IMG/VR virus record: IMGVR_UViG_3300009529_000028
Coordinates: 1 to 31,345 of that record
Strand: one strand, 5' to 3'
DNA length: 31,345 nucleotides
Source: a virus
Part shown: positions 1 to 27,069 of the stretch, piece by piece
How positions within the stretch are numbered: position 1 is the first letter of the stretch
How the letters are laid out: every line of letters begins with the position of its first letter
Position numbers and translations under genes: made by a program
Notes under the pieces: generated by a model
Seen by the model: the letters and a program-made list of their open reading frames with translations, nothing else
Database searches by the model: none
Told to the model about the DNA's origin: nothing

Positions 1-6
1 AAAACT

Positions 7-279
7 ATGGCACATTCTAAAGGCAACTTTTCTCCAGAAGTAAAACAGGCGATTATGCAAGCGCAGCACAATTACTGCCGAGTATTAAATTGTTGCGAAC
101 CAATCCATAGCATTCATCATAAACTCCGAAATACTGCGGTCAATAGAAAACTATATCCTAAATTCATTCAGAGCGTTTTTAATGCAGTAGGTTTATGCTT
201 TTCCTGCCATACGAACAATACACATTTATTTAATATTACTGACGGGGAAGCAAAAATCTATGAAAATTATTTACATTAA
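7..279 (+). CDS. Small HNH-type nuclease-like protein
   Basis: A 90-aa protein with an HNH/zinc-binding layout: C24, C29/C30, H34, a His-His pair at 37-38, N46, N59, then C64-x2-C67-H68. The Asn-rich middle followed by GLC-x2-CH resembles short phage HNH proteins that cut or nick DNA, either as free-standing homing enzymes or as packaging partners. It lies far from the terminase genes, so a homing or accessory role is more likely. The start codon is only six bases into the window, so a longer upstream form cannot be excluded. The family call is by motif only. Confidence 0.6.
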   Translation: MAHSKGNFSPEVKQAIMQAQHNYCRVLNCCEPIHSIHHKLRNTAVNRKLYPKFIQSVFNAVGLCFSCHTNNTHLFNITDGEAKIYENYLH

Positions 280-299
280 CCGCCAATCCCCGGGCTTTC

Positions 300-333
300 T
301 ATCCCCCTTTCTTGGCTCGGGGAGCGGGGGATA
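300..333 (+). other. GC-rich hairpin upstream of the next gene
   Basis: An 8-bp perfect inverted repeat, TATCCCCC (300-307) with GGGGGATA (326-333), encloses an 18-nt loop. It stands out in AT-rich surroundings and ends just before the AAAGG Shine-Dalgarno region of the gene at 347. No T-run follows on the + strand, so it is not a classical terminator in that direction. It may stabilise a 3' end or affect initiation of the next gene. Confidence 0.45.
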
Positions 334-346
334 AAGGAAACTCACT

Positions 347-646
347 ATGGTTGACCTCTTTATAAAGCCTATATCAATGCGTCAGAGAGTAATAGATTAC
401 TGCAAAGTTAAAATCTATGTTTCAAGTATAGATATAGAGAACCTTAAAGACCATATTCGTAGGACAGAAGGTAATGTAAAGGGTTTATTAAGAATACACC
501 GAGAATGGCGGGCATTGGCAAGGACAGAGGAGAACCCCAAAGGCGTTATGCGCAGATTAGATAGGCGAGAGAAGATATTCCGAGGTTTTAAGAACCCTGA
601 TTTAGCAATATACGAATTTATTGGAGAACCAACCCCACAAGAATAA
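347..646 (+). CDS. Hypothetical protein, 99 aa
   Basis: Not recognised. A soluble, highly charged protein rich in Arg, with a helical middle (MRRLDRREKIFRGF) and no Cys cluster or membrane segment. The ATG is preceded by AAAGGAAAC about 8-10 nt upstream, a reasonable ribosome site. It sits in a run of small, closely spaced + strand genes typical of the accessory/early part of a phage genome. Base composition is like its neighbours. Confidence 0.6.
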   Translation: MVDLFIKPISMRQRVIDYCKVKIYVSSIDIENLKDHIRRTEGNVKGLLRIHREWRALARTEENPKGVMRRLDRREKIFRGFKNPDLAIYEFIGEPTPQE

Positions 647-655
647 GATAGGAGA

Positions 656-844
656 ATGGAGATGGAAGAAGTAAGATTTAATATACCTAATTTATCCGAA
701 CTTGAATATAAGTTAGTAATAAATGCATTAAAAGTTTGGCGAGGCGATTTTGGAAATGGTATAAGCACACAAATATGGACGAAGGAATTAGACGCCTTGT
801 TGACCAAATTAGGTTTTGCTGAAAAGGGATGGATAAAAGATTAG
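656..844 (+). CDS. Hypothetical protein, 62 aa
   Basis: Not recognised. A small, mixed-charge protein that begins MEMEEVRF and contains the amphipathic segment LSELEYKLVINALKVW. GATAGGAG lies just upstream of the ATG. The gene starts 9 nt after the previous stop and is followed almost at once by a mini-ORF, so it probably belongs to the same transcript. Confidence 0.55.
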   Translation: MEMEEVRFNIPNLSELEYKLVINALKVWRGDFGNGISTQIWTKELDALLTKLGFAEKGWIKD

Positions 845-845
845 A

Positions 846-932
846 ATGACCACCACCATCCCAACCCAAGACCTAATGAATAAGCGTATTTTGATGGCAT
901 TGGCTTGTTTGATGATGGAGAGGGTGAATTGA
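846..932 (+). CDS. Mini-ORF, 28 aa
   Basis: An ATG-started frame of 28 codons begins right after the previous stop and ends in TGA one base before the next ATG (934). The product starts MTTTIPTQ and ends in a Met/Leu/Ala-rich stretch. The segment GTGAATTGAGATG at its end recurs almost unchanged at 1266-1277 before the next gene, so it may act mainly as a translation-coupling leader. Whether it makes a functional peptide is unknown. Confidence 0.3.
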   Translation: MTTTIPTQDLMNKRILMALACLMMERVN

Positions 933-933
933 G

Positions 934-1218
934 ATGGGAGTTTCAATTATACTTGGCAAAAAAAATATAACTCCAGGCTGGCGGTCTATGATGTATAGAC
1001 TTATGACAGACAATTTTGGTTGTATTCATACGCAATATGGAACAGAATTTATCTTTATGGATTATGATATTCCTACCTTAATGCGTATAGCAAAGAGGCA
1101 ATATAAAGGTCAAAAAGAAAAGCCTTTTGATTATGCGGAAGATATTGAACAATCTTTTAATGAGATAATAAAGACTATTCAAAAAAAAGGTGAAGCCAGA
1201 GTTTCTTGTGGGTTTTAA
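934..1218 (+). CDS. Hypothetical protein, 94 aa
   Basis: Not recognised. A 94-aa soluble protein with aromatic-rich strands (IHTQYGTEFIFMDYDIPTL) and a helical C-terminal half (AEDIEQSFNEIIKTIQKK). There is no strong Shine-Dalgarno; the ATG follows the stop of a 28-codon mini-ORF by one base, suggesting translational coupling. It belongs to the cluster of small accessory genes at the left end of the window. Confidence 0.6.
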   Translation: MGVSIILGKKNITPGWRSMMYRLMTDNFGCIHTQYGTEFIFMDYDIPTLMRIAKRQYKGQKEKPFDYAEDIEQSFNEIIKTIQKKGEARVSCGF

Positions 1219-1274
1219 ATAACTTAAACAACCCGTAGAAGGAAAACAATTGATGGCAGATGGGATGAATTGAG

Positions 1275-1514
1275 ATGTCCATTAAAGACAAACTTCTAAA
1301 ACTCCTCATTGACGAACTAATCCTCACCCCTACCGAGGCCAAGAACCTGAAGGACACGACTACTTTTGAGGAATTGGCGGTTGACGACTTGATGTTTATG
1401 GATTTGATAGGGGCGATAATGGATGAATTTGACATTTCCCTGCCGGATGTAGAGGGGATTAAGACGGTTGGGGAGTTGATTAAGGTGGTTGAGGGTAAGG
1501 TAAAGAATGGATAA
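1275..1514 (+). CDS. Acyl-carrier-protein-like protein without the prosthetic-group serine
   Basis: A 79-aa acidic helical protein that lines up with bacterial AcpP over its whole length: helix I (KDKLLKLLIDEL), the loop before helix II (FEELAVDDLMFMDLIGAI), then MDEFDISLPD and the C-terminal helix (TVGELIKVVEG). In AcpP the DSL motif carries the serine that receives phosphopantetheine; here it is Asp37-Asp38-Leu39, so the usual attachment residue is replaced by Asp (codon 1386-1388). The fold looks kept while carrier chemistry is probably lost. It could mimic an ACP to bind a host partner, or be a structural adaptor. It overlaps the next gene by 8 nt. The match was made by eye; a coincidental helical protein is possible but the colinearity is good. 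Confidence 0.6.
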   Translation: MSIKDKLLKLLIDELILTPTEAKNLKDTTTFEELAVDDLMFMDLIGAIMDEFDISLPDVEGIKTVGELIKVVEGKVKNG

Positions 1515-1698
1515 ACGGGAAATCGACCGCCGGTATTATCAGCGTAATCGCCAAAAGGTTTTAGCCAGAGTGAAAGATTATTATGAACGCAATAAAGACT
1601 CCATTTCGGAATACAAAAAGGATTGGTGGAAAAACAAGCAAACAAGGCTTGATTTGATTAAAAAAAGACATAGGCAATTAATAAAAGAAAAGGCTTGA
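1507..1698 (+). CDS. Small basic protein, 63 aa
   Basis: A very basic, Tyr- and Arg-rich helical protein with YYQRNRQKVLARVKDYYERNKD-like alternation, similar to the basic helices that often accompany phage endonuclease VII/HNH proteins. No catalytic motif is visible, so only nucleic-acid binding can be suggested. The start overlaps the end of the ACP-like gene by 8 nt, with GAGGGTAAGG as Shine-Dalgarno. Its stop codon TGA is embedded in the TTGACA -35 box of the promoter at 1695. Confidence 0.5.
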   Translation: MDKREIDRRYYQRNRQKVLARVKDYYERNKDSISEYKKDWWKNKQTRLDLIKKRHRQLIKEKA

Positions 1699-1723
1699 CA
1701 GACAGACCAAAGGGGTGTAGAAT
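1695..1723 (+). promoter_or_regulatory. Sigma70-type promoter, first cassette
   Basis: TTGACA (1695-1700), a 17-nt spacer, and TAGAAT (1718-1723): a perfect -35 and a five-of-six -10 at ideal spacing. Transcription is expected to begin near 1730, which is the first base of stem A of the structured leader. The -35 overlaps the stop codon of the preceding gene, as in the sister promoter at 2589. Confidence 0.8.
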
Positions 1724-1729
1724 ATAAGG

Positions 1730-1839
1730 GACTAACGGGAGGCGGGTTTTTTTATGTCAAAACAATGGGTAGTTGGATGGCTTGAAGTATTTAACCGTGC
1801 TTCTGTTAGTCGCCTGAAGGCTACCCTCTTTTATTGGAG
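1730..1839 (+). promoter_or_regulatory. Structured 5' leader with crossed stems (pseudoknot-like), copy 1
   Basis: Two long-range pairings interleave. Stem A pairs 1730-1741 (GACTAACGGGAG) with 1800-1811, 12 consecutive pairs including two G-U. Stem B pairs 1767-1774 (GGGTAGTT) with 1819-1826 (GGCTACCC). The order A-B-A'-B' is a pseudoknot or a pair of mutually exclusive states. Stem A contains GGGAG, the Shine-Dalgarno of a 30-codon leader ORF. After B' come TCTTTTATT and the TTGGAG Shine-Dalgarno of the replication gene. A second leader at 2626 has different stem sequences but the same topology, which is strong evidence that the structure matters. This is inferred from hand folding. Confidence 0.6.
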
Positions 1840-1846
1840 TAGATAA
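1754..1846 (+). CDS. Leader ORF, 30 aa, coupled to the replication gene
   Basis: An ATG at 1754, preceded by GGGAGGCGG and a run of seven T, opens a 30-codon frame that ends in TAA at 1844-1846, sharing its last base with the ATG of the next gene (TAATG). Translating it would move ribosomes through stems B, A' and B' of the leader and couple initiation of the downstream gene. The peptide is Trp- and aromatic-rich (MSKQWVVGWLEVF...). The sister leader has only a 7-codon ORF at the equivalent ATG (2648-2671), so ribosome passage rather than the peptide may be what counts. Confidence 0.4.
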   Translation: MSKQWVVGWLEVFNRASVSRLKATLFYWSR

Positions 1847-2592
1847 TGGATTATTTGCATATAAAAAATCTTGAAAAGTATCATCCGACATACAAAGACC
1901 GTAATCTTATCTGGTGTAAAACATATTTTAGTATGATAAATGCAGACCCTGAATTTGAAATGCTTGAAGAAATAGACAAATGGCGATTTATGGCCTTTAT
2001 AATGTTAGAGATACAAAGTAAGAAACCAATACCTTTAGATGAAAGATATTTAACAAGAAAAGGATTTAACTTTAAAAAGCGTGCTATCTCTCTAACTTTA
2101 AAGATGTTACACAACTTTATAATGTTGTATACAGAAGATGAAAAAGTGCGTGGCGTAGATATAGATAAAGAAGTAGAAGAAGAAATAGAAAAAAGAAAGA
2201 AGTTCGTTACAGAAACTTTTGATTATTTTCTCTTAAAGACCAAACAGAAACTTCAATTAACATCTGAACGCAAGGCTATTATTGAAAAGCGATATAAGAA
2301 TGGCAAAACAATAGAGGAATTAAAAAAAGCAATAGATAATTTCATTCAAGATGATTGGGAAGACCGTTCAAAGTTTATGGATTTGATTTATTGTTTGGGT
2401 GTTAGAAATAAGATAGATAACTTTGAGAAATGGTTAAATATGCTTGAAAAGAAACCTAAAGCAATGCACTGGGGGAGGGCAGAAGATTTTATACAGAAAC
2501 AAGCAAAAACTAAAGAACAAATTGAGAAAGAGGGGCTAATTCCCAAAGAGAAATTGCAAAATCTTATAAAGAAAATAGGAAAAAAGTCTTGA
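1846..2592 (+). CDS. Phage replication initiation/replisome organiser-like protein (DnaD-type)
   Basis: A 248-aa protein. Residues 1-95 look like the winged-helix N-terminal domain of phage replisome organisers (a WxxxFxxI...DPEF segment, a K-W-R-x2-A-x-ImLeI helix, then a basic helix). Residues about 120-210 fit the C-terminal domain common in such proteins: [15 protein letters not shown], then [32 protein letters not shown] and FEKWLNML. The last 40 residues are basic. Such proteins bind the phage origin and load the host helicase. TTGGAG lies 6 nt before the ATG, and the start also couples to the leader ORF. Expression probably comes from the promoter at 1695 and is gated by the structured leader. 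The family call is good; the exact role is inferred. Confidence 0.65.
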
Positions 2593-2617
2593 CAAACTCC
2601 AATAAATTTGATATAGT
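2589..2617 (+). promoter_or_regulatory. Sigma70-type promoter, second cassette
   Basis: TTGACA (2589-2594), a 17-nt spacer and TATAGT (2612-2617). The -35 overlaps the TGA stop of the replication gene, exactly as the promoter at 1695 overlaps the stop of its upstream gene. The start site should fall near 2624, two bases before stem A of the second leader. Confidence 0.8.
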
Positions 2618-2625
2618 ATTAGGTA

Positions 2626-2733
2626 GTGATAGGGGAGTGGATTTTTTATGCCTAAAGAACAGGGCGCATAGTAGGTTACGGAGAATAAACCATTTTCCTA
2701 TCACGAACCGAATTGCGCCTCTTTTTTTGGAGG
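2626..2733 (+). promoter_or_regulatory. Structured 5' leader with crossed stems (pseudoknot-like), copy 2
   Basis: Stem A pairs 2626-2640 (GTGATAGGGGAGTGG) with 2690-2704 (CCATTTTCCTATCAC): 15 consecutive pairs, three of them G-U. Stem B pairs 2662-2668 (GGGCGCA) with 2714-2720 (TGCGCCT), and is followed by CTTTTTTT and the TTGGAGG Shine-Dalgarno of the HNH gene. Topology, loop sizes and landmarks (GGAG inside stem A, TTTTTTATG after it, AACC before A', a T-run after B') match the leader at 1730, while the paired bases differ. A 7-codon ORF (2648-2671) ends inside the leader and covers stem B. If only B-B' forms, the T-run makes an intrinsic-terminator-like end. Confidence 0.6.
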
Positions 2734-2738
2734 ATAGA

Positions 2739-3239
2739 ATGCGAGGTTTTAGAAATGAAGATGGCTCTAAACTTGGTTTTCAAAAAGGCCATAAAATCAA
2801 TATAAAAAGGAAGTTTTCTTTAAAGCATAAAAAAAGATTAGGTAGAGCAATTAAAAAGGCACATAGGATTAAGACATTTGGTTATCAAAAAGGAAATAAA
2901 TCTATATACGGATTTAAAAAAGGTCAAATCGCTTGGAATAAAGGAGTCTTTGGAGAAAAAAATAATAATTGGAAAGGTGGAAGATTTAAAACTGACCAAG
3001 GTTATATTCGTATTCTTAAACGTGAACATCCTTTTTGTAATAGTGTGGGATATATAACAGAACACAGATTGATTATGGAAAAAATACTTGGTCGTTATCT
3101 TAAGCCATTTGAAAAAGTCCATCATAAAAATGGTATAAGGGATGACAACCGCCCTGAAAATCTTAAACTTTTTGTTGAAGGCAAAAATTGGCATCCTTGG
3201 TTATGCCCTAAATGCGGATTTGAATTTTTGATTAGATAA
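2739..3239 (+). CDS. HNH homing endonuclease
   Basis: A 166-aa basic protein. Residues 10-80 hold Gly/Lys repeats of the NUMOD DNA-binding kind (GFQKGHK, GYQKGNK, GFKKGQ, NWKGG). The HNH core follows: EHR 108-110, LGR 118-120, VHH 127-129, NG 131-132, N137 and N141 in the RPENL motif. A CPKC knuckle lies at 156-159. The frame is open 50 codons further upstream, but 2739 is chosen as start because TTGGAGG lies 5 nt before it and the expected transcript begins near 2624, downstream of the upstream in-frame starts. It is free-standing, with its own promoter and a leader related to that of the replication gene, which suggests it arrived with, or captured, a copy of that control region. Confidence 0.8.
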
Positions 3240-3301
3240 ATTGATACACCGATTTTTACTCCAGACGGAAGAAAAATTTAACCCCTAACCTTGCGAAGAA
3301 A

Positions 3302-3379
3302 ATGATTATCCTACTCTGGCCATTAGCGATATTTCTGATTGTTTATTCTTACCATATGAGATGGTGGGGAGTAAAATGA
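3302..3379 (+). CDS. Tiny membrane peptide, 25 aa
   Basis: A 25-codon frame encodes one hydrophobic segment (MIILLWPLAIFLIVYSY) and a short basic-aromatic tail. Its TGA overlaps the ATG of the next gene (ATGA at 3376-3379), the coupling used throughout this genome. A role in membrane targeting, such as lysis regulation or exclusion, is only a guess. Confidence 0.4.
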   Translation: MIILLWPLAIFLIVYSYHMRWWGVK

Positions 3380-3543
3380 AAGTTTGTTATAAATGTAAGC
3401 AAGAAAAGCTATTGACAGAATTTAGGCGATACAAAAGCGGAGTGAATAAAGGATATTATCATTCCTATTGTAAAGTTTGTGTAGTGCAAGATAAAAAAAC
3501 CCAGAAAAGTAAAGAAGCAAAAAATAAATATATGCAAGAATAA
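3376..3543 (+). CDS. Small zinc-ribbon protein, 55 aa
   Basis: Two CxxC knuckles (C4/C7 and C32/C35) separated by a KLLTEFRRYKSG-like spacer, then a Lys-rich tail. This is the layout of the short zinc modules at the start of phage endonuclease VII/HNH proteins, but no nuclease core follows, so it may be a solitary nucleic-acid-binding finger or a truncated relic. ATG 3376 is chosen over an upstream ATG at 3361 because it overlaps the preceding stop and has GGGGAG 5-6 nt upstream. Confidence 0.55.
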   Translation: MKVCYKCKQEKLLTEFRRYKSGVNKGYYHSYCKVCVVQDKKTQKSKEAKNKYMQE

Positions 3544-3576
3544 TGAGGAATAAAAATTAAGAAAGGAGAAACTAGG

Positions 3577-4182
3577 ATGAAGAAAATAAATAATTGGGAT
3601 GAATTTAAAAATCTTTCTATTAAAATAAGACAAGTAGAATATAAGAAGATAATTTATACCAGACACAAAAATCCAGATGGCAGTATTGGTGGCTTTGTAG
3701 CAAAAACTGCAAGGGTAGAAGTTACTGCTCGGGTTTCTGGGAACGCCCAGGTTTCTGGGAACGCTCGGGTTTGTGGGGACGCTCGGGTTTCTGGGAACGC
3801 CCAGGTTTCTGGGAACGCCCAGGTTTCTGGGAACGCTCGGGTTTGTGGGGACGCTTGGGTTTCTGGGGACGCTCGGGTTTGTGGGGACGCTCGGGTTTCT
3901 GGGAACGCCCAGGTTTCTGGGAACGCCCAGGTTTCTGGGAACGCTCGGGTTTCTGGGGACGCTTGGGTTTCTGGGGACAAAATTATTACCATTTTAAAAA
4001 CAATTCAAGTTTTCCAATATTGTATTTCCATAACTCCGAATTATATCTTTTGCGGTTGTGAAAAATGGCAACATAAAGAAATCAAAACTTTGCAATATGA
4101 AAAATGTTCAGCAAAAACCCAGATGACTAAAGAGCAATTTACTATTTTAAAGAAAATGGTTTTGTTGGCAATTCAGTATTAA
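3577..4182 (+). CDS. Hexapeptide-repeat (beta-helix-like) phage protein, 201 aa
   Basis: Residues 1-44 form a short N-terminal domain. Residues 45-134 are fifteen six-residue units, fourteen of them of the form A[R/Q/W]V[S/C]G[N/D] after a first divergent unit, the periodicity of a left-handed beta-helix (three six-residue rungs per turn). The last 65 residues resemble the tail domain of a common phage family (ISITPNYIFCGCEKWQHKE). Proteins of this type occur in many phages with unknown roles; a surface- or ligand-binding scaffold is plausible. AAGGAG lies about 10 nt before the ATG. The repeats are nearly identical in DNA, so unit number may vary between relatives. No acyltransferase active site is evident. 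Confidence 0.65.
   Translation: MKKINNWDEFKNLSIKIRQVEYKKIIYTRHKNPDGSIGGFVAKTARVEVTARVSGNAQVSGNARVCGDARVSGNAQVSGNAQVSGNARVCGDAWVSGDARVCGDARVSGNAQVSGNAQVSGNARVSGDAWVSGDKIITILKTIQVFQYCISITPNYIFCGCEKWQHKEIKTLQYEKCSAKTQMTKEQFTILKKMVLLAIQY
3727..3978 (+). repeat. Tandem 18-bp repeats, 14 units, coding
   Basis: Fourteen direct 18-bp units, each close to GCTCGGGTTTCTGGGAAC, encode the hexapeptide rungs. There is also a longer period: units 4-8 and units 10-14 have nearly the same order (RS, QS, QS, R-x, WS), an apparent 90-bp duplication. All units stay in frame. The GC content is above that of the surrounding genes. Other reading frames through the array also stay open, which is a by-product of the 18-bp period. 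Confidence 0.9.
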
Positions 4183-4209
4183 AGTTTGGAGGGTGAGAGG
4201 ACAAAATTG

Positions 4210-4365
4210 ATGTTTACTTTCCTCGTAAAAAAATCTTGGGCCAACTGTCCGGAAAATATGCTACAAACAATTAACTACGCTAATTTACATAAAGTAATAT
4301 TTTATCTAATATGTATTTCAGTTTTAATCGGAGTGGCTGTTTGGTCGAATGGGAGGATAAGATGA
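4210..4365 (+). CDS. Small membrane protein, 51 aa
   Basis: An ATG-started frame with a polar N-terminal half and one clear membrane segment near residues 28-45 (KVIFYLICISVLIGVAVW), ending in a short basic tail. Its TGA overlaps the next ATG (ATGA at 4362-4365). GGAGGGTGAGAGG lies about 13-20 nt upstream. It could be a holin-like or exclusion protein, but one helix and no family match leave this open. It fills most of an otherwise gene-poor stretch between 4183 and 4511. Confidence 0.45.
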   Translation: MFTFLVKKSWANCPENMLQTINYANLHKVIFYLICISVLIGVAVWSNGRIR

Positions 4366-4466
4366 ATAGAGATGAGAAACAAATAAAAAGATTGGAAATG
4401 CGAAAAATAAGTAATACTATGAAAGAGAGGGGGATATGTCCACCAATAGCAAGGTTAGGGAAGTAG
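4362..4466 (+). CDS. Hypothetical basic peptide, 34 aa
   Basis: A 34-codon frame overlaps the previous stop by ATGA and has GGGAGGA 5 nt before its ATG, so translation is likely. The product is strongly basic and helical at first (MNRDEKQIKRLEMRKI), then CPPIARLGK. No family recognised. Confidence 0.4.
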   Translation: MNRDEKQIKRLEMRKISNTMKERGICPPIARLGK

Positions 4467-4476
4467 TTCAAGCAAT

Positions 4477-4490
4477 TCGTTCACGAACGA
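4477..4490. other. Short perfect palindrome
   Basis: TCGTTC-AC-GAACGA is a 6-bp perfect inverted repeat with a 2-nt centre, 22 nt upstream of the ATG at 4512. It could be an operator for a dimeric regulator. With a 2-nt centre it would make a poor RNA hairpin. No promoter boxes are obvious around it. Confidence 0.35.
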
Positions 4491-4511
4491 TATGAAGGGA
4501 GGAAGAGGATA

Positions 4512-4724
4512 ATGGATACATTAAGAGAAGGTTTACAAGAAGAAATAGGCGATTTAAATAGTTGTTTACCAAAATCAGATTCAAAAGATTTAAGAGATGT
4601 TGCAAAAATATGGTCTTGTTATGTTCTACAAGCAAATATAGGTAAAGTACTTGAATATGGACTTGAGATTTCGAAAGCGATAACTAACTACTTAAATGAA
4701 TTGGACAATCACCCCAACCAATAA
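4512..4724 (+). CDS. Hypothetical protein, 70 aa
   Basis: Not recognised. An acidic helical protein with the segments LREGLQEEIGDLNSCL and VAKIWSCYVLQANIGKVLEYGLEI. No membrane segment or metal motif; two Cys. GGGAGGAAGAGG precedes the ATG with good spacing. It lies between tiny membrane-protein genes and the lytic transglycosylase, but this does not define a role. Confidence 0.55.
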   Translation: MDTLREGLQEEIGDLNSCLPKSDSKDLRDVAKIWSCYVLQANIGKVLEYGLEISKAITNYLNELDNHPNQ

Positions 4725-4769
4725 AACCAATGACAGATAACCCATTTAAAAAGCAAAAGAGTAGATAAG

Positions 4770-5414
4770 ATGAACCCCTACAAATTTGCCTTACTTTTAT
4801 ACTTAGTCATCGGCCTAATCCTGTGCGCCACAGTATGGGTTCAGAAGGTTTGGCCTGAACAGATGTATCTTGACCCTGAATGTAAATTTCCTTTTAGTAA
4901 TGAACCCATAAATCCAGTTTTGATTTTATATAGAAAATCACAAATAGAAGAAATACGCTGGGATGATTTAGTTGCTACTGTAATACAGATAGAAAGTTCG
5001 GGCAATCCCCAAGCAGTATCTAAAGCAGGCTGCATCGGACTTATGCAGATAAATCCTAAAGGAGCATTGGCGGAATGGAATAATGCAATGGATAAGAGAT
5101 ATAAAATGTTAGAAAAGGGACATCCGTTTCCGATTGATTATGATTGGATAAAAAGCAAATGTTCCTTTCATACTTTAGGAGATTTATATAACCCAAATAT
5201 CAATATCAAAATCGGCACTTGGTATCTTAAACGGCTTAAAGACCATTATCTAAAAAACAATTTTACTATTGAACGGATGTTGGCGGCTTATAATGGTGGC
5301 CCAACAAGAATGAGGCGTTTATTAAGACAAGGCAAAGATTGGCAGGATATGCCCCGTGAGAGCGTCAATTATGTTCGTAAGGTATTGAAACTTTATCGCA
5401 GACCTGCAAAATGA
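4770..5414 (+). CDS. Membrane-anchored lytic transglycosylase (SLT/GH23-like)
   Basis: A 214-aa protein with an N-terminal signal anchor at residues 7-25 and an SLT catalytic domain from about 63. Hallmarks: catalytic Glu75 in QIESSGNP, GLMQINP at 90-96, the segment NINIKIGTWYLKRL at 143-156, AAYNGGP at 172-178, and SVNYVRKV at 198-205. Such enzymes cleave the MurNAc-GlcNAc bond of peptidoglycan to 1,6-anhydroMurNAc. With an uncleaved anchor it would act on the wall from the inner membrane's periplasmic side, a signal-anchor-release type of endolysin. A wall-penetrating virion enzyme is less likely, as it lies outside the structural block among small membrane-protein genes. The family call is strong; the lysis role is inferred. 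Confidence 0.88.
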   Translation: MNPYKFALLLYLVIGLILCATVWVQKVWPEQMYLDPECKFPFSNEPINPVLILYRKSQIEEIRWDDLVATVIQIESSGNPQAVSKAGCIGLMQINPKGALAEWNNAMDKRYKMLEKGHPFPIDYDWIKSKCSFHTLGDLYNPNINIKIGTWYLKRLKDHYLKNNFTIERMLAAYNGGPTRMRRLLRQGKDWQDMPRESVNYVRKVLKLYRRPAK

Positions 5415-5440
5415 CTCTGTGATATATTTAGAGAATTAAA

Positions 5441-5529
5441 TCTGACAGGGGTTTTAAGGCACGATTTACCACGAACGGCAGATAAGCCAGTAAGAATGCC
5501 CTAAAAACCGAAAATCGCAAATACCTGCC
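5441..5529 (+). ncRNA. Candidate structured RNA between genes
   Basis: The 132-nt gap between the transglycosylase gene and 5547 has no useful ORF but folds well by hand. Stem 1 pairs 5450-5461 (GGTTTTAAGGCA) with 5497-5509, with one mismatch and one bulge. Inside it TTAC (5466-5469) pairs with GTAA (5490-5493), and GGC (5477-5479) with GCC (5486-5488). Two further perfect pairings cross these: CGATTT (5462-5467) with AAATCG (5512-5517), and GGCAG (5477-5481) with CTGCC (5525-5529). It could be a leader of the 5547 gene, whose Shine-Dalgarno follows at once, or an independent RNA. Confidence 0.35.
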
Positions 5530-5546
5530 AAAAATGAGGAGGAGGG

Positions 5547-5762
5547 ATGAGTAAGAAATCTGACAAGAGAATGGTGGAGGGGATAGTGCTTAAAGATATT
5601 TGCATAAATAAAGTTACTCAATTAGCAGTGAATGAACTTATCTCTTTTGAGCAAATTGAACCGTTTAAAAGATTAGCAAGATTATTAGATGACGAAATCC
5701 AGAAGAAACTTGCCCAAGCAATAGCCTCTTATATACAGAGCAAGAAGCCGTTAGGAGATTAA
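5547..5762 (+). CDS. Hypothetical protein, 71 aa
   Basis: Not recognised. A soluble helical protein (VTQLAVNELISFEQIEPFKRLARLLDDEI) with basic ends. GAGGAGGAGGG directly precedes the ATG, the strongest Shine-Dalgarno in this part of the window. Its stop abuts the next ATG (TAAATG), so it is co-transcribed with the cysteine-protease-fold gene. Confidence 0.6.
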   Translation: MSKKSDKRMVEGIVLKDICINKVTQLAVNELISFEQIEPFKRLARLLDDEIQKKLAQAIASYIQSKKPLGD

Positions 5763-6182
5763 ATGAAAAAAGTTTATCAGACAAAATTTGGCAAGGAAGG
5801 TAATTGTTTTTCTGCTTGTCTTGCTTCTATATTAGAAATTGATATTGAGAAAGCGCCGACTTTTCGAGGGCCAAAAGGAGAATGGTATATAAAATATAAG
5901 CGATGGTTAAATCAATTTGGATTAGATTTGGTAGCCATCTCTAATTGGGATGATTTTCCAGAAGGCAGACCAAAAGTTTATGCAATGGTAGGTGGAACAA
6001 GTCCTCGTGGATTAAAACATTCAGTAATTTATTTTGACGGCGATATGGTTCACGACCCTCATCCTGAAGGTGGTGGAGTCAAAGATATTACTGATTGGAT
6101 TTATCTTGTTCCCAAATTTCCTAATATACAGAGCAAAACTATTGAGGATGTCGTGATGGATGAGGGGAAGCTATTAAAATGA
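5763..6182 (+). CDS. Papain-like/C39-like cysteine protease-fold protein
   Basis: A 139-aa protein with a GNCFSACLASILE helix start, placing a candidate nucleophile at Cys15, then His86 in RGLKHSVIYFDG and an HDPHP motif at 97-101 that could supply the third catalytic residue. The Cys-helix, then beta-strand His, then HDPHP arrangement is seen in a widespread uncharacterised phage family related to peptidase C39-like folds. The substrate is unknown; host protein or peptide cleavage, or a non-catalytic role, are open. It starts one base after the preceding stop and overlaps the next gene by ATGA, within an operon running to about 7478. Confidence 0.6.
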   Translation: MKKVYQTKFGKEGNCFSACLASILEIDIEKAPTFRGPKGEWYIKYKRWLNQFGLDLVAISNWDDFPEGRPKVYAMVGGTSPRGLKHSVIYFDGDMVHDPHPEGGGVKDITDWIYLVPKFPNIQSKTIEDVVMDEGKLLK

Positions 6183-16655: not shown

Positions 16656-17309
16656 CAAATAAACCATCAATAGGCCACCTTAACTAGTAATGGTTATGAA
16701 AAATACTCTCAAATTCGGAGAACACCTCAAAATGACAGAAAGAAAAATTGGTTGGTTAGCAGGTATTGTGGATGGTGAAGGATATATCGCTATCCACAAA
16801 CTTTGGGCTAATGATAGAAACAATTACCGTTTTCAAGTTAGATTAGTTGTTTCTAATACCAATTTTGATATTTGTCAGCGATGTAAAGATTTATGCGGTT
16901 GTGGTAAAGTTTATACCAAAAAACAAGTTAAAGGACAGAAAGTTGTTTATCAATGGGTTCTTTACGGTGTAGATAAAATTGTAAGTATTTTGGAGATGAT
17001 TAAGGATGATTTAATTCAAAAAAAAGAAGTAGCCGAGATTGTGATTAGATACAAAAAATTTTACCAATCAAAAGGTGGCTACGCAAAAAGAATATCTCCA
17101 GAAACTTTGCAATCTCAATATCTATTATACCACGCTGCATTAGAACTAAATCGCAGAGGCAATTCCGAGCCAAGCCCAAATAGGGAAGGTGTAGAGACTA
17201 GATGGGAGTCCCCTGAAAAGGGTGAAGGTATAGTCCGAGCTACACGGAGACGTGTAGAGTCTGGTAGAAATATCCAGACCGTTCTGGAAACAGAATAGTA
17301 ACAATCCTG
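16656..17309 (+). mobile_element. Group I intron in the major capsid gene
   Basis: A 654-nt self-splicing intron. Core landmarks: AATTCCGAGCCAAGCCC (17161-17177, P4-P6 region), GACTA (17196-17200) pairing with TAGTC (17231-17235) for P7, CCCT-GAAA-AGGG (17211-17222) for P8, and AAGGTATAGTCC (17225-17236). The guide sequence GCCAC (16674-16678) pairs exon 1 GTGGT with a U-G at the junction. Just upstream of it CATCAATA (16665-16672) is perfectly complementary to TATTGATG (17311-17318), forming P10 with exon 2. The intron ends in G (17309). Removing it joins T|AT into a Tyr codon, restoring the frame (K-W-Y-I-D-V-D-C-P). A LAGLIDADG gene is carried inside and runs into the core. Confidence 0.85.
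16732..17298 (+). CDS. Intron-encoded LAGLIDADG homing endonuclease
   Basis: A 188-aa protein with a single LAGLIDADG motif near its start (IGWLAGIVDGEGYIA; first acid Asp14, catalytic acid Glu16), followed by the usual alternating strand pattern (YRFQVRLVVSNT, VVYQWVLYG). Single-motif enzymes act as homodimers and cut intronless copies of the exon junction, spreading the intron. The frame is open from ATG 16690, but 16732 is preferred because it has GGAG upstream and starts just before the motif. The last 45 residues are translated from the P4-P9 ribozyme core, which constrains both; this tail may be dispensable. It reads TAG 11 nt before the intron end. Confidence 0.8.
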   Translation: MTERKIGWLAGIVDGEGYIAIHKLWANDRNNYRFQVRLVVSNTNFDICQRCKDLCGCGKVYTKKQVKGQKVVYQWVLYGVDKIVSILEMIKDDLIQKKEVAEIVIRYKKFYQSKGGYAKRISPETLQSQYLLYHAALELNRRGNSEPSPNREGVETRWESPEKGEGIVRATRRRVESGRNIQTVLETE

Positions 17310-17559: not shown

Positions 17560-18153
17560 ATGAAGAAACTTTTACTTGCTTGCCTCTTTCTCTTAATTTG
17601 CACTCCTGCATTTGGGTTGATAGTTACGGATAATGTAGACAGGGATAACTTTGGCTATGAAGTTGCCTTTAGTTATGCAACAGATAATATATCGGCAAAC
17701 ACAATAGCGTGGGAAATTCCTGTAGAATCAACTTTGGATGATAATTTCTACTATGTTGTTCCAAGAGACGGCAGAGTAGTAGGGATGTCTGTTGCTGGAA
17801 GTGCAGCCTGCACAGCAGGAGCAGCTACATTTGATATAACTATCAATGGTGCAGTTACAGGAATTCAAACTGTAATTGAACCGACAGCAACTACAGCACG
17901 TTCAGCAGTAGGTATAAACGGTGCAGCAGACCCTCAATATGCCTATATCAGGCAGGATAGGGCAGATAGTGTGGTCGCAAGGGGATTTAGGGTATCTTTG
18001 GATAGAGTTGGTTATCACGATGCCGAACATCCTTTTGGTAAGGCTACTGCTTTGACTGCTGGCAACAGAATAGGAGTAACCATTAACACAACTACAGGCT
18101 TTACACCAACTGCTACTACTGATTATCTAGTAGTAATCTATGTGCTTGAATAA
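17560..18153 (+). CDS. Predicted exported beta-rich protein after the capsid gene
   Basis: A 197-aa protein with a clear Sec signal peptide: MKKLLLACLFLLICTPAFG, with likely cleavage after residue 19. The mature part is rich in beta strands and in Gly, Ala, Thr and Val (GRVVGMSVAGSAACTAGAATFDI) with no enzyme motif, like head decoration or fibre-type structural proteins. In most phages this position holds a decoration or head-tail gene made in the cytoplasm, so a signal peptide is unexpected. GAGAGGAGG lies about 9 nt upstream. It could be secreted or surface-located in the infected cell, or assemble with virions after lysis. Confidence 0.6.
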   Translation: MKKLLLACLFLLICTPAFGLIVTDNVDRDNFGYEVAFSYATDNISANTIAWEIPVESTLDDNFYYVVPRDGRVVGMSVAGSAACTAGAATFDITINGAVTGIQTVIEPTATTARSAVGINGAADPQYAYIRQDRADSVVARGFRVSLDRVGYHDAEHPFGKATALTAGNRIGVTINTTTGFTPTATTDYLVVIYVLE

Positions 18154-19360
18154 AGCCAAGAAAACAGGGAAATGGGAAACAGCCTTAATTTGGCTGTTTC
18201 CCGCTTTCCTTGAAAAATGTTTCCTGTATCTTCTTATATTTGCCGTTCCACTTTTGTATTATCCCCTGAAAGTGGATGGAGGGATTATTGATTTACGCAA
18301 GATACGAGAAATAGGTTTTTATTCTTTTGCGATAATTATTTGCTCTTTCTTGCAAAGGAGCCGGTGGTTAAGATATTTTGTAATTTGGTGTGTGATAAAC
18401 TGGTGGGTTAATTTCTTCCTGCCAAGAGAAAGTTATATCGGATTAACTAATGTCTTTTCCGCTTTAGTTCTTTATATCGGCCTGAAGTTCTTGCTTGAAA
18501 AAGGTTTTTTGAAGGTTGATGTAATTCTCCGCATTGTCTGTGTAGCAGTATTGTTTCAATTTGGCTGGCTGATAACACAGATGTTTAATTACGACCCTTT
18601 GGAGTGGTGGAAATGGGGCCCGGGATTTTATGCCATAACTGCTTCAGGCCAGCCGTTGGGGACTAAAGTTCCTTTAGTAAGTTGGAGCGGAAACCCTTGT
18701 GTTTTGGGAATATTTTTTGCAAGCACTTCATTTTTGCTATTGCATTATTTTAAGATTAGAAAACTACCAATTCTGTTCTTTGTTATTTTAAGTTCTGCGT
18801 TTATTATCAAGAACGCCACTACTGCGATATGTTTTGCTTCCGGAGGATTATTTTATTTGCTGAACAGATACCGTTTTAAAATGAAATATATCCTTGTTTG
18901 CCTGTTGGTTGTTGTGATGCTCGGCACATTTTTCGTATATATTAAGGCGCCGAATTTTGACAGATTTCCTATTTGGCAAAAGTTACTTCAGGATGGTATA
19001 AAGGTAAAACCATTTACGGGAAAAGGAATTAACTTCTTTGCCCATTTATTTATTATTGATAAAACTGGAACACCGTGGAAAGAAGCACATAATGATTATT
19101 TGCAGATGATTTTAGAACTTGGAATAATCGGATTTGTTTTATTCTCCGGCTGGATTGTTTCAAGATTTGTGGTGTTCTTTAGACAAGCAAAAAATAATAA
19201 ACAAATATGTATAGCGACGTGTCTGGTAGCATTTTTGATAGCGGGAGTATCTATGTTTCCGATGCACTTGGCTCAAATATCTTTTTATGCCGTTTTACTT
19301 TTAGCAGTTTTGGAGAGCATTTATGTCAATTCCAAAAGTTTTAGCCCCCACAATATCTAA
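18140..19360 (+). CDS. O-antigen ligase/polymerase-like membrane protein (Wzy_C/WaaL type)
   Basis: A 406-aa polytopic inner-membrane protein with about ten hydrophobic segments. A large loop at about 271-322 carries family hallmarks: FDRFPIWQKLL (273-283), PFTGKGINFF (291-300) and WKEAHNDYLQMILELGIIG (313-331), with His317 as the likely key residue. In WaaL-type ligases this periplasmic loop transfers lipid-linked polysaccharide to lipid A-core; Wzy proteins join O-units. Inside a phage structural block it probably alters host surface glycans, for example to block receptors against superinfection. It overlaps the previous gene by 14 nt and the next by 38 nt, so it is embedded in the late transcript rather than separately inserted. 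Ligase versus polymerase cannot be decided. Confidence 0.7.
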   Translation: MCLNKAKKTGKWETALIWLFPAFLEKCFLYLLIFAVPLLYYPLKVDGGIIDLRKIREIGFYSFAIIICSFLQRSRWLRYFVIWCVINWWVNFFLPRESYIGLTNVFSALVLYIGLKFLLEKGFLKVDVILRIVCVAVLFQFGWLITQMFNYDPLEWWKWGPGFYAITASGQPLGTKVPLVSWSGNPCVLGIFFASTSFLLLHYFKIRKLPILFFVILSSAFIIKNATTAICFASGGLFYLLNRYRFKMKYILVCLLVVVMLGTFFVYIKAPNFDRFPIWQKLLQDGIKVKPFTGKGINFFAHLFIIDKTGTPWKEAHNDYLQMILELGIIGFVLFSGWIVSRFVVFFRQAKNNKQICIATCLVAFLIAGVSMFPMHLAQISFYAVLLLAVLESIYVNSKSFSPHNI

Positions 19361-25890: not shown

Positions 25891-26288
25891 TTGAGGATTT
25901 AATCACCGTATCCAATAGCAAGTTTAAATATAAAGACCCAGAGGAATTAAGAACTTATTACGAAAAGGCAGTAGAGGAAGGCAGATTACTTTACCTACGC
26001 AATAACGGCGATGTAGTTGGCTACCTTATTTATTTTATCTTTAATAAAGAAGGACTTGAAAGGTATCTAAAGGACAATATCCCCGAACATAAACCTGATG
26101 GCAAGTATCTTTATATTGATGAAAATGTAGTCTTTACGGGAAAGAAGGCGAACTACTTGCCTTTAAGGAAACAATTCAGGCAGATGTATCCGCAACTCAA
26201 AGCTGTTTATTGGGATAACATTGTTACAAAGGGTGGACGCAGGGAAAAACGACTCTTTAAATATACGGAGGAGAAAGTTAGTGCCTAA
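25878..26288 (+). CDS. GNAT-fold-like phage protein, 136 aa (tentative)
   Basis: Alternating helices and strands: LRTYYEKAVEEGRLLYLRNN, DVVGYLIYFIF, GKYLYIDENVVF, then NYLPLRKQFRQMYPQLKAVYWDN and KRLFKY. This pattern (basic helix after a central strand, then a YPxxxxVxW strand) occurs in virion-block proteins with an acetyltransferase-like fold but without a clear acetyl-CoA loop. A virion accessory role is likely; enzymatic activity is not supported. The start lies inside the preceding gene. Confidence 0.45.
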   Translation: MPTIVEDLITVSNSKFKYKDPEELRTYYEKAVEEGRLLYLRNNGDVVGYLIYFIFNKEGLERYLKDNIPEHKPDGKYLYIDENVVFTGKKANYLPLRKQFRQMYPQLKAVYWDNIVTKGGRREKRLFKYTEEKVSA

Positions 26289-27069
26289 AGGTGTTTATGT
26301 AAGAACACAATATTATAAAGATTTATTAAGACAACGTCAAGGGACTAAAGAATATAAAATAAAACATAGCCAAGATTGCAAAGGTAAATGTGGAGTTTAT
26401 AAAAGAACCGAAGAGCAAAAAATGATATTGCGTGAAAATGGCAAAAAATACGGATTTAAAAAAGAAAATAAAATTGGTCATAGATTTAAAAAAGGATATA
26501 AATGGACAAAAAAACACCGGGAAAATCACAAAAAATACAAAATGACCGAACATCATAAAAGTTTATGCGGGCAATATAAAAGGACTGAAAACCATCTTAA
26601 TTTATTGAGAGAATTGAATAGTGGCGAAAAAAATCACGGTTGGAAAGGTGGGATTTCTTTAGATAAAAAGAAATACAACCAGAAATACCAACAGAATATA
26701 CCAAAAGAGGAAAGAAATGTTTACAGAAGGGAATATAATCATAGGTTAGGTATAAGTAAAAAATATAGTTATAAATACGGAGGTTTAAAACCTTTAACTA
26801 AAAGAGAACATAGATTGCTTCGTAAATATAACGAGAAAGAAGCAGGAGAGTTAACAATTGAAACCATTCAAAAAGTATATGAAGACAATATAAAAGAGTT
26901 TCAAACTCTTACTTGCTATCTTTGTTTAGAACCAATTATTTTTGGGAAAGATACACTTGACCATATAATTCCTCTCTCAAGAGGAGGAACAAACAAATAT
27001 GAAAATTTAGCTATTGCTTGTAGAATTTGCAATAGTGTTAAACACAATAAGCTAATAGAGGAGCTCTGA
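26281..27069 (+). CDS. Free-standing HNH homing endonuclease with NUMOD3-like repeats
   Basis: A 262-aa basic protein. Residues about 30-125 contain repeated Gly/Lys/Arg DNA-binding motifs (GVYKRTEEQ, YGFKKENKIGHRFKKG, GQYKRTENH, HGWKGG). The C-terminal nuclease is a C4-type HNH: CYLC 212-215, Asp227-His228 in LDHIIPLSRGG, Asn in YENLAIAC, CRIC 247-250. It probably makes site-specific cuts in related phages to spread itself. GTG 26281 is preferred as start: GGAGGAGAAAG lies upstream and an alternative in-frame start at 26221 lies within the preceding gene. It is slotted between tail and ejection genes, a usual place for such elements. Confidence 0.8.
   Translation: MPKGVYVRTQYYKDLLRQRQGTKEYKIKHSQDCKGKCGVYKRTEEQKMILRENGKKYGFKKENKIGHRFKKGYKWTKKHRENHKKYKMTEHHKSLCGQYKRTENHLNLLRELNSGEKNHGWKGGISLDKKKYNQKYQQNIPKEERNVYRREYNHRLGISKKYSYKYGGLKPLTKREHRLLRKYNEKEAGELTIETIQKVYEDNIKEFQTLTCYLCLEPIIFGKDTLDHIIPLSRGGTNKYENLAIACRICNSVKHNKLIEEL

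Follow-up and report, generated by a model that had tools for sequence, protein, structure and literature searches.

We analyzed a 31,345-base IMG/VR virus record (hereafter the window) that carries two promoter-leader cassettes, c1 and c2, one ahead of a 248-aa gene and the other ahead of an HNH endonuclease gene (Table 1). Sequence comparison identifies them as two members of a previously undescribed RNA leader family. Across this family, it supports a promoter-leader module with four helices (A to D), the mutual exclusion of D and the upper part of A, a U tract ahead of the gene and an association with HNH nucleases.

Two cassettes and their leader RNAs

An earlier, sequence-only reading of this DNA had described each cassette as a TTGACA-17-TA(g/t)A(a/g)T promoter followed by stems in the interleaved order A-B-A'-B', with a leader ORF (open reading frame) and a T-run plus TTGGAG before the gene. 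The promoter and stems are present in c1 and c2, as are a T-run, a leader ATG and a U-rich stretch ahead of the Shine-Dalgarno (SD) sequence. Stem A has 12 contiguous pairs in c1 (16 if a bulge is allowed) and 15 in c2, while stem B has 8 pairs in c1, two of them G-U, and 7 in c2. In both cassettes the 5' strand of B lies within the loop of A and its 3' strand follows the 3' strand of A (A'), so that B crosses A. Helices C and D are additions to this description. Two further details hold for the window more than for the family. The stop codon of the upstream gene does lie inside the -35 element of both cassettes, as the TGA of a 63-aa ORF in c1 and of the 248-aa ORF in c2, but it does so at only 8 of 31 family sites (counting upstream ORFs of 40 codons or more) and is therefore no family rule. 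The GGGAG noted in stem A is indeed paired there, but its sequence varies among relatives.

Table 1. Elements of the two cassettes and the genes behind them, in window coordinates
Feature	Position	Strand	Remarks
c1 promoter, -35 TTGACA (1695-1700), -10 TAGAAT (1718-1723)	1695..1723	+	17-nt spacer
c1 stem A 5' strand (A5')	1730..1745	+	begins at about +1, the 7th base after the -10
c1 loop L1, T-run and leader ATG (1754-1756)	1746..1766	+	ATG not universal in the family
c1 stem B 5' strand GGGTAGTT	1767..1774	+	
c1 internal loop GGAU	1775..1778	+	AGUA at this place in 17 of 30 members
c1 helix C 5' strand GGC, weak	1779..1781	+	register by inspection; 3 of 4 pairs in fixed register
c1 helix D 5' strand GAAGTAT, alternative partner of A'	1784..1790	+	7 of 7 pairs
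c1 stem A 3' strand	1795..1811	+	1797-1803 doubles as D 3' strand
c1 helix C 3' strand GCC	1812..1814	+	register by inspection
c1 stem B 3' strand GGCTACCC	1819..1826	+	
c1 U-rich tract (1827-1835), SD GGAG (1836-1839)	1827..1839	+	
248-aa gene behind c1	1846..2592	+	weakly replication-initiation-like, from profile matches
c2 promoter, -35 TTGACA (2589-2594), -10 TATAGT (2612-2617)	2589..2617	+	17-nt spacer
c2 stem A 5' strand	2626..2640	+	begins at the 9th base after the -10
c2 loop L1, T-run and leader ATG (2648-2650)	2641..2661	+	
c2 stem B 5' strand GGGCGCA	2662..2668	+	
c2 internal loop, 5' side UAGUA	2669..2673	+	loop-E-like with GAAU 2710-2713
c2 helix C 5' strand GGTT	2674..2677	+	
c2 helix D 5' strand CGGAGAA	2679..2685	+	5 of 7 pairs in fixed register
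c2 stem A 3' strand	2690..2704	+	2692-2698 doubles as D 3' strand
c2 helix C 3' strand AACC (2706-2709), then GAAU (2710-2713)	2706..2713	+	
c2 stem B 3' strand TGCGCCT	2714..2720	+	
c2 U tract (2721-2728), SD GGAGG (2729-2733)	2721..2733	+	
HNH_3 endonuclease gene behind c2	2739..3239	+	PF13392 1.6e-8; phrog_20891 2.3e-26

A leader family with conserved helices

The family comprises 33 sites, 32 of them distinct: 31 in 20 viral records, with up to four leaders per record, and two in one bacterial genome. Pattern scans of IMG/VR (promoter-GGAG-T-run-ATG) gave L064, L129, L133 and L095, all in the order A-B-A'-B', in which TTGACA, GGAG, the T-run and ATG are biased by the search pattern. A route free of this bias, a search with the HNH proteins behind c2, L064 and L133, gave 41 loci; a descriptor scan together with the covariance model R1 found the leader in nine of these, six of them new and some lacking the leader ATG or GGGAG. 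R1 models stem A alone and was built from six leaders (L278, L291, two from L276, L284 and L064), leaving out c1, c2, L129 and L133. It finds the held-out c2 (55.5 bits, E 1.1e-10) and c1 (43.4 bits, E 9.7e-8), as well as L129, L133, L294, L299, L283 and a third site in L276. Its best match in 859,660 + 710,001 bases of other contigs scores 25.5 bits, against at least 43 for accepted members.

Run on whole records, a search likewise free of the bias from the first pattern, R1 places accepted leaders in 10 of 30 records (12 reach E 0.1, and two weak ones were dropped) and in 10 of a further 38, a set that came from a pattern fixing the T-run, ATG, CTAA, GTA and GAA. Weak R1 matches in G016 and G028, one in G001 (E 0.0475) and reverse-strand echoes of stem A were dropped. 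IMGVR 3300024433_000013, which holds both window cassettes unchanged, was left out of the counts, L389 (identical in sequence to L387) out of the distinct counts and L095 out of all family counts. Not all of the 20 records are independent: G052 and G058 have their leader and compared flanks in common, and G001 and G018 their upstream flank. Family promoters have an exact TTGACA at 21 of 31 sites, spacers of 16-18 nt and a gap of 5-7 nt from the -10 to the first model position.

The bacterial members, L397 and L398, come from a single genome among the 326 sampled in the phylum to which a Desulfobacteraceae metagenome-assembled genome belongs; both lie on one contig, and one of the two genomes sampled from the order is positive. 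R1 found nothing in samples of two further phyla (0 of 379 and 0 of 198 genomes), although these phylum scans used strict filters that left few candidates scored per genome, so the absence is weak. A BLASTN search of 50,697 phage records with two leaders returned short pieces only (best E 0.2), and a scan of genome contigs (at least 119 loci) yielded no member by structure filter (best 40 of 150) or by R1 (100 of 119 loci). The sequence-only reading had not recognized the class. This is borne out by Rfam 15, which has no match in the window and none up to E=10 in 1600-2800; across 16 loci no leader match exceeds its cut-off, only a tRNA away from the leader passes, and the L397 leader overlaps a sub-threshold match to a miRNA model (25.7 bits, cut-off 72).

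At L095, R1 finds nothing in the locus or the record, although the promoter, the A-B order and the U tract are alike. This GC-rich leader (1410-1570, minus strand) has crossing stems A and B, a C-like helix seen by eye and a U tract, lacks the loop-E motif and precedes a non-HNH phage gene (phrog_1273). It is either a distant cousin or a parallel invention.

Helix statistics were compiled for 30 distinct leaders, with the two bacterial members held out of the counts. Stem A has 97.3% standard pairs, a level reached by none of 500 shuffles; 14 of its 16 pairs are changed on both sides, giving 137 double-change cells, in an alignment fitted to A that is somewhat favorable to it. Each leader's own A' is the best or tied-best of all 30 for its A5' strand. 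Stem B is pairable at 180 of 180 positions against a maximum of 132 in 2000 shuffles, in a register chosen before shuffling from nine offsets to maximize pairing, which favors B. Helix C, nested in B, reaches 115 of 120 against a shuffle maximum of 96 and is weaker in the c1-like members (3 of 4 pairs); the registers of C and D were fixed, and the anchors of C (GAA, GUA) were partly picked by B/C pairing, with C/U-GAA required. The compensatory changes in A, B and C bear out the earlier proposal of a selected RNA structure, and the case that would have spoken against it, loss of A or B pairing without compensation, occurs in none of the 30 leaders. A DNA cruciform or an antisense function was considered and rejected: 70 of 526 stem A pairs are G-U, 55 of them with G on the 5' side, and such pairs form in the sense RNA only.

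Between B and C lies an internal loop with AGUA in 17 of 30 leaders, CGUA in eight, GGAU in three including c1, and UGUA and AUUA in one each, facing GAA. The GAA is present in all 30 by construction, since anchoring required it; the held-out L397 has CAA in its place. AGUA facing GAA between two helices is what we take to be a loop-E motif. In 29 of 30 leaders, the end of A' and the 3' strand of C are separated by 0 or 1 nt, which would fit, without proving, a true pseudoknot in which A and C stack on each other. Both held-out bacterial leaders, judged by eye, also have A, B, C and a D hairpin.

Helix D is a hairpin formed by the strand after the 5' strand of C with the upper half of A'. Its loop is UUAACC in 15 of 30 leaders and a near variant in most others. 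D is pairable at 189 of 210 positions against a shuffle mean of 146.5 and maximum of 162 (5000 shuffles), while slid registers give 92-112; the anchoring expression restricts the loop, and L329 is misanchored yet kept in these counts. The 3' bases of D also pair in A in 193 of 210 cases, and in both A and D in 174 of 210. In a scan of all segments against between-record cross-pairing, A5-A3, B5-B3, the C segments and L2-A3 (that is, D) stand out. Upper A and D are mutually exclusive and both conserved, and the RNA therefore looks bistable. With pseudoknots ignored, the mean energy is -29.5 kcal/mol for the A state and -24.1 kcal/mol for the B/C/D state, and the minimum-energy fold is mostly A in 24 of 30 leaders and mostly B/C/D in six.

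Downstream genes and apparent mobility of the module

HNH nucleases account for 28 of the 31 proteins scanned behind family leaders (32 sites with a protein, less the duplicate L389). Twenty-four match phrog_20891, and L320, L330, L388 and L335 match other HNH profiles; the profiles matched overall are HNH-type and NUMOD3. The three exceptions are c1, L396 and L390. The 248-aa protein behind c1 matches phrog_28809 (1e-36, function unknown) and phrog_16167 (1.2e-4, replication initiation protein), with no Pfam family at E 0.01. L396 precedes a DnaD-like helicase loader (phrog_186, 3.8e-8), and the L390 protein has 66 aa and ends at the contig end. Behind L385 the sequence reads as a C-terminal HNH remnant; here an intact leader seems to have outlived a decayed gene. 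No Rfam match to HEARO, the omega RNA of IscB, was obtained, the RuvC domain not having been searched for as such.

Other nuclease-like genes occur in the window. A second HNH gene (26221-27069, PF01844 1.3e-11) has no leader, c1 and c2 being the record's only R1 matches at E 0.1. The 63-aa ORF just before c1 (1507-1698) resembles part of an HNH family (phrog_7091, 2.7e-5) with no recognized nuclease domain and is possibly the remnant of an HNH gene adjoining c1. The ORF at 16690-17298 is homing-nuclease-like. PHROGs assigns it to HNH (phrog_5046, 2e-18), by eye we took its product for a LAGLIDADG protein, and it lies directly 3' of a 331-aa ORF that we presume to encode a coat protein. Elsewhere, 1275-1514 encodes an acyl-carrier-like protein (PP-binding, 1.5e-7), 18140-19360 an O-antigen-ligase-like protein (Wzy_C 1.6e-6, below its cut-off) and 3577-4182 a protein with many near-identical VSGNA/VCGDA repeats. 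Within 1-6000, BLASTN against the phage collection gives matches only to the DNA encoding this repeat protein.

Does the leader travel with its gene? The leaders of L316 and L317 are 97% identical and share promoter and upstream flank apart from small indels; the identity ends at the start codons of different HNH genes, whose proteins are 45% identical. The leaders of c1 and L335 are 86% identical, with matches at chance level in the 60 bases before the -35 (24/60) and the 80 after the start codon (28/80). From these breaks, the segment from the -35 to the start codon is judged to be a module that recombines independently of the sequence on either side. Over 358 pairs, not independent of one another, leader identity is only weakly correlated with protein identity (rho 0.195). 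Autoregulation by the adjoining HNH protein was rejected, as near-identical leaders front different HNH genes and the genes behind c1 and L335 are unrelated. Moreover, of the 19 other records with a leader, many of which are fragments, one has a match to the window terminase (phrog_38, 1.7e-52), at 26% identity along a segment, and none has a match to the window's portal-like protein. Together with the flank breaks, this suggests that the module is mobile among different phages. In the bacterial genome (G146, contig C29), two leader-HNH cassettes lie about 1 kb apart on the strand opposite the ORFs that flank them; of four such ORFs, two have matches to phage tail or virion profiles.

Possible function and relation to known systems

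How might such a leader act on the gene behind it? Our preferred reading, to which we give slightly less than an even chance, is that c1 and c2 are portable promoters joined to cis-acting attenuators. The module would combine a consensus sigma70-type promoter with a leader RNA, about 115 nt long, whose folding begins at roughly the first nucleotide and gives a pseudoknot in which A crosses B and C. Upper A' would have two exclusive partners, A5' or the local hairpin D, and B/C (with D in the second state) followed by the U tract would resemble an intrinsic terminator. The choice between upper A and D would set transcription readthrough into the downstream gene, usually a mobile HNH nuclease, and a strongly promoted nuclease gene would thereby be kept low or timed. 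We infer termination and the coexistence of A with B/C; either of the two states could be the ON state, and the signal could be a ligand, a protein, a small RNA or a ribosome on A5'/L1. A broader proposal is possible, though we lean against it: that the leaders are a new kind of bistable regulatory RNA with a pseudoknot, resembling a riboswitch or attenuator and built around a loop-E core. Carried from phage to phage as a promoter-leader module, mainly ahead of mobile HNH nucleases and sometimes replication initiators, this RNA would read a signal of the infection state to decide nuclease synthesis.

The layout agrees with the attenuation switch that the sequence-only reading had entertained: a conserved, mutually exclusive helix (upper A versus D) is present, and stem B is followed directly by a terminator-like U tract. 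At positions -21 to -12 the leaders have T 0.63 and A 0.16, compared with 0.28 and 0.41 at 155 other gene starts on the same contigs, taken as predicted ORFs with an SD-like word. Twenty-five of the 30 leaders, as against 6 of 152 background starts, have a terminator-tail score of 2.9 or higher. It is this U-rich tail and its score that suggest attenuation. Several observations weigh against it. The score falls below 2.9 in five of 30 leaders. B and C share no bases with A, and formation of A need not abolish the B/C stem; because B and C are compatible with both states, an effect of the A/D choice on termination is something we infer, and the model offers no explanation of how the exchange would alter termination. 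The loop closed by B/C is long, which terminators seldom show, and the B/C/D arm is weak in c1 (-5.3 kcal/mol) and L335 (-4.2 kcal/mol). The energies of the A and B/C/D states are uncorrelated (r=-0.09), giving no sign of a tuned balance. Finally, R1 finds the leader at only 9 of the 41 HNH loci from the protein search, and three of the nine hold query genes; most HNH relatives are therefore without it.

The same structure could act without termination. A rather unlikely reading, still one to be taken seriously, is that the 5' stem and pseudoknot protect the messenger RNA just upstream of an open, U-rich ribosome binding site (RBS), and that the A/D exchange alters how readily a ribosome or protein can reach A5'/L1 or the SD. 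Since 5-7 nt separate the -10 from the first model position, the 5' end is probably paired, and the end of the 7-nt B 3' window lies 15-22 nt, mostly 19, from the start codon, about where the edge of the ribosome footprint falls. RNA structure at the RBS does control T4-like homing nucleases (PMC2988022). Against this, the tail is U-rich and A-poor, unlike the other gene starts of the same contigs, and a segment scan of the 30 leaders detects no leader segment that covaries with the SD-bearing tail. Sequestration of the SD by a T4-type RBS-hiding hairpin was rejected, given this result and the position of the SD outside A-D. A further, improbable reading is a ligand-binding riboswitch, in which the loop E, the UUAACC-like loop and L1 would together bind a small molecule, as an aptamer, that changes with infection. 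The two exclusive states would suit it, and unpaired parts are alike beyond pairing needs (NGUA in 26 of 30, UUAACC or a near variant, a UUUUUAUGUCUAA-like L1); part of this likeness, however, is fixed by the search pattern and anchors, the gene context suggests no ligand and Rfam gives no riboswitch match.

It is less probable still that the terminated product of about 100 nt is a functional small RNA with the HNH gene carried along. The promoter, paired 5' end and U-tract 3' end would serve such an RNA, and similar modules do precede unrelated genes. Yet a gene starts closely 3' of the U tract at 30 of 31 sites, the exception being L385 with its decayed HNH gene, and 24 of these 30 starts have an SD 4-mer (29 by a looser list; L388 has none), which argues for a role in cis. 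Last comes the leader ORF, through which the sequence-only reading had supposed ribosomes to be sensed. A ribosome initiating at the leader ATG would break A and B and so control the gene, many of these ORFs stop at the internal-loop UAR or near the downstream start, and D would free the leader SD region. The start is ATG in 26 of 32 leaders and TTG in four, but it is lost in two, an SD 4-mer precedes 13 of the 30 with a start as against 24 of 30 real genes, and stops are not depleted in frame 0 (65 of 826 codons, compared with 42 of 813 and 101 of 804 in the other frames). As a general rule this switch is the least probable reading we weighed, and ribosome sensing may operate in some members. 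The stop counts also dispose of a conserved leader peptide; a coding frame running across the -35 TTG meets a stop in L064, though c2, L133 and L095 leave it open.

If our preferred attenuator reading is true, the module is a shared, mobile solution, one RNA switch for several HNH types across different phage records. To our knowledge, expression control of newly landed free-standing homing nucleases is known mostly from T4-like hairpins. Being mutually exclusive, the helices make the switch directly open to single and compensatory mutations, and the family invites a search for a ligand or protein partner. Among known systems, terminator/antiterminator attenuators and pseudoknotted riboswitches likewise use exclusive helices that share one strand, with a U tract after the last stem. 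Here, however, the competing helix A crosses the terminator-like arm, whose closing stem it does not overlap, and Rfam has no match. The bulged-G (sarcin-ricin) loop E occurs in T-box stem I and in the lysine and glutamine riboswitches; AGUA facing GAA between two helices is common to these RNAs and ours, as a submotif alone.

In the portions consulted of open-licence PMC papers, PMC2864571 and PMC2988022 among them, no such leader is described. The nearest precedent found there is the group of T4-like homing-nuclease hairpins. I-TevI, SegB and Aeh1 mobE have RBS-hiding RNA structures, which I-TevI avoids by a late promoter; as here, an RNA structure fronts a phage homing nuclease and is thought to limit or time its expression (PMC2988022). 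In seg43 of Aeromonas phage 25, a stable structure lies directly upstream of the RBS and leaves it uncovered, and the portion consulted describes it as a hairpin with no mention of a family or switch (PMC2988022). Our leaders differ from the I-TevI, SegB and mobE hairpins in having a 5'-terminal pseudoknot, two exclusive states and an unpaired SD, and in recurring as one module before different genes in different phages.

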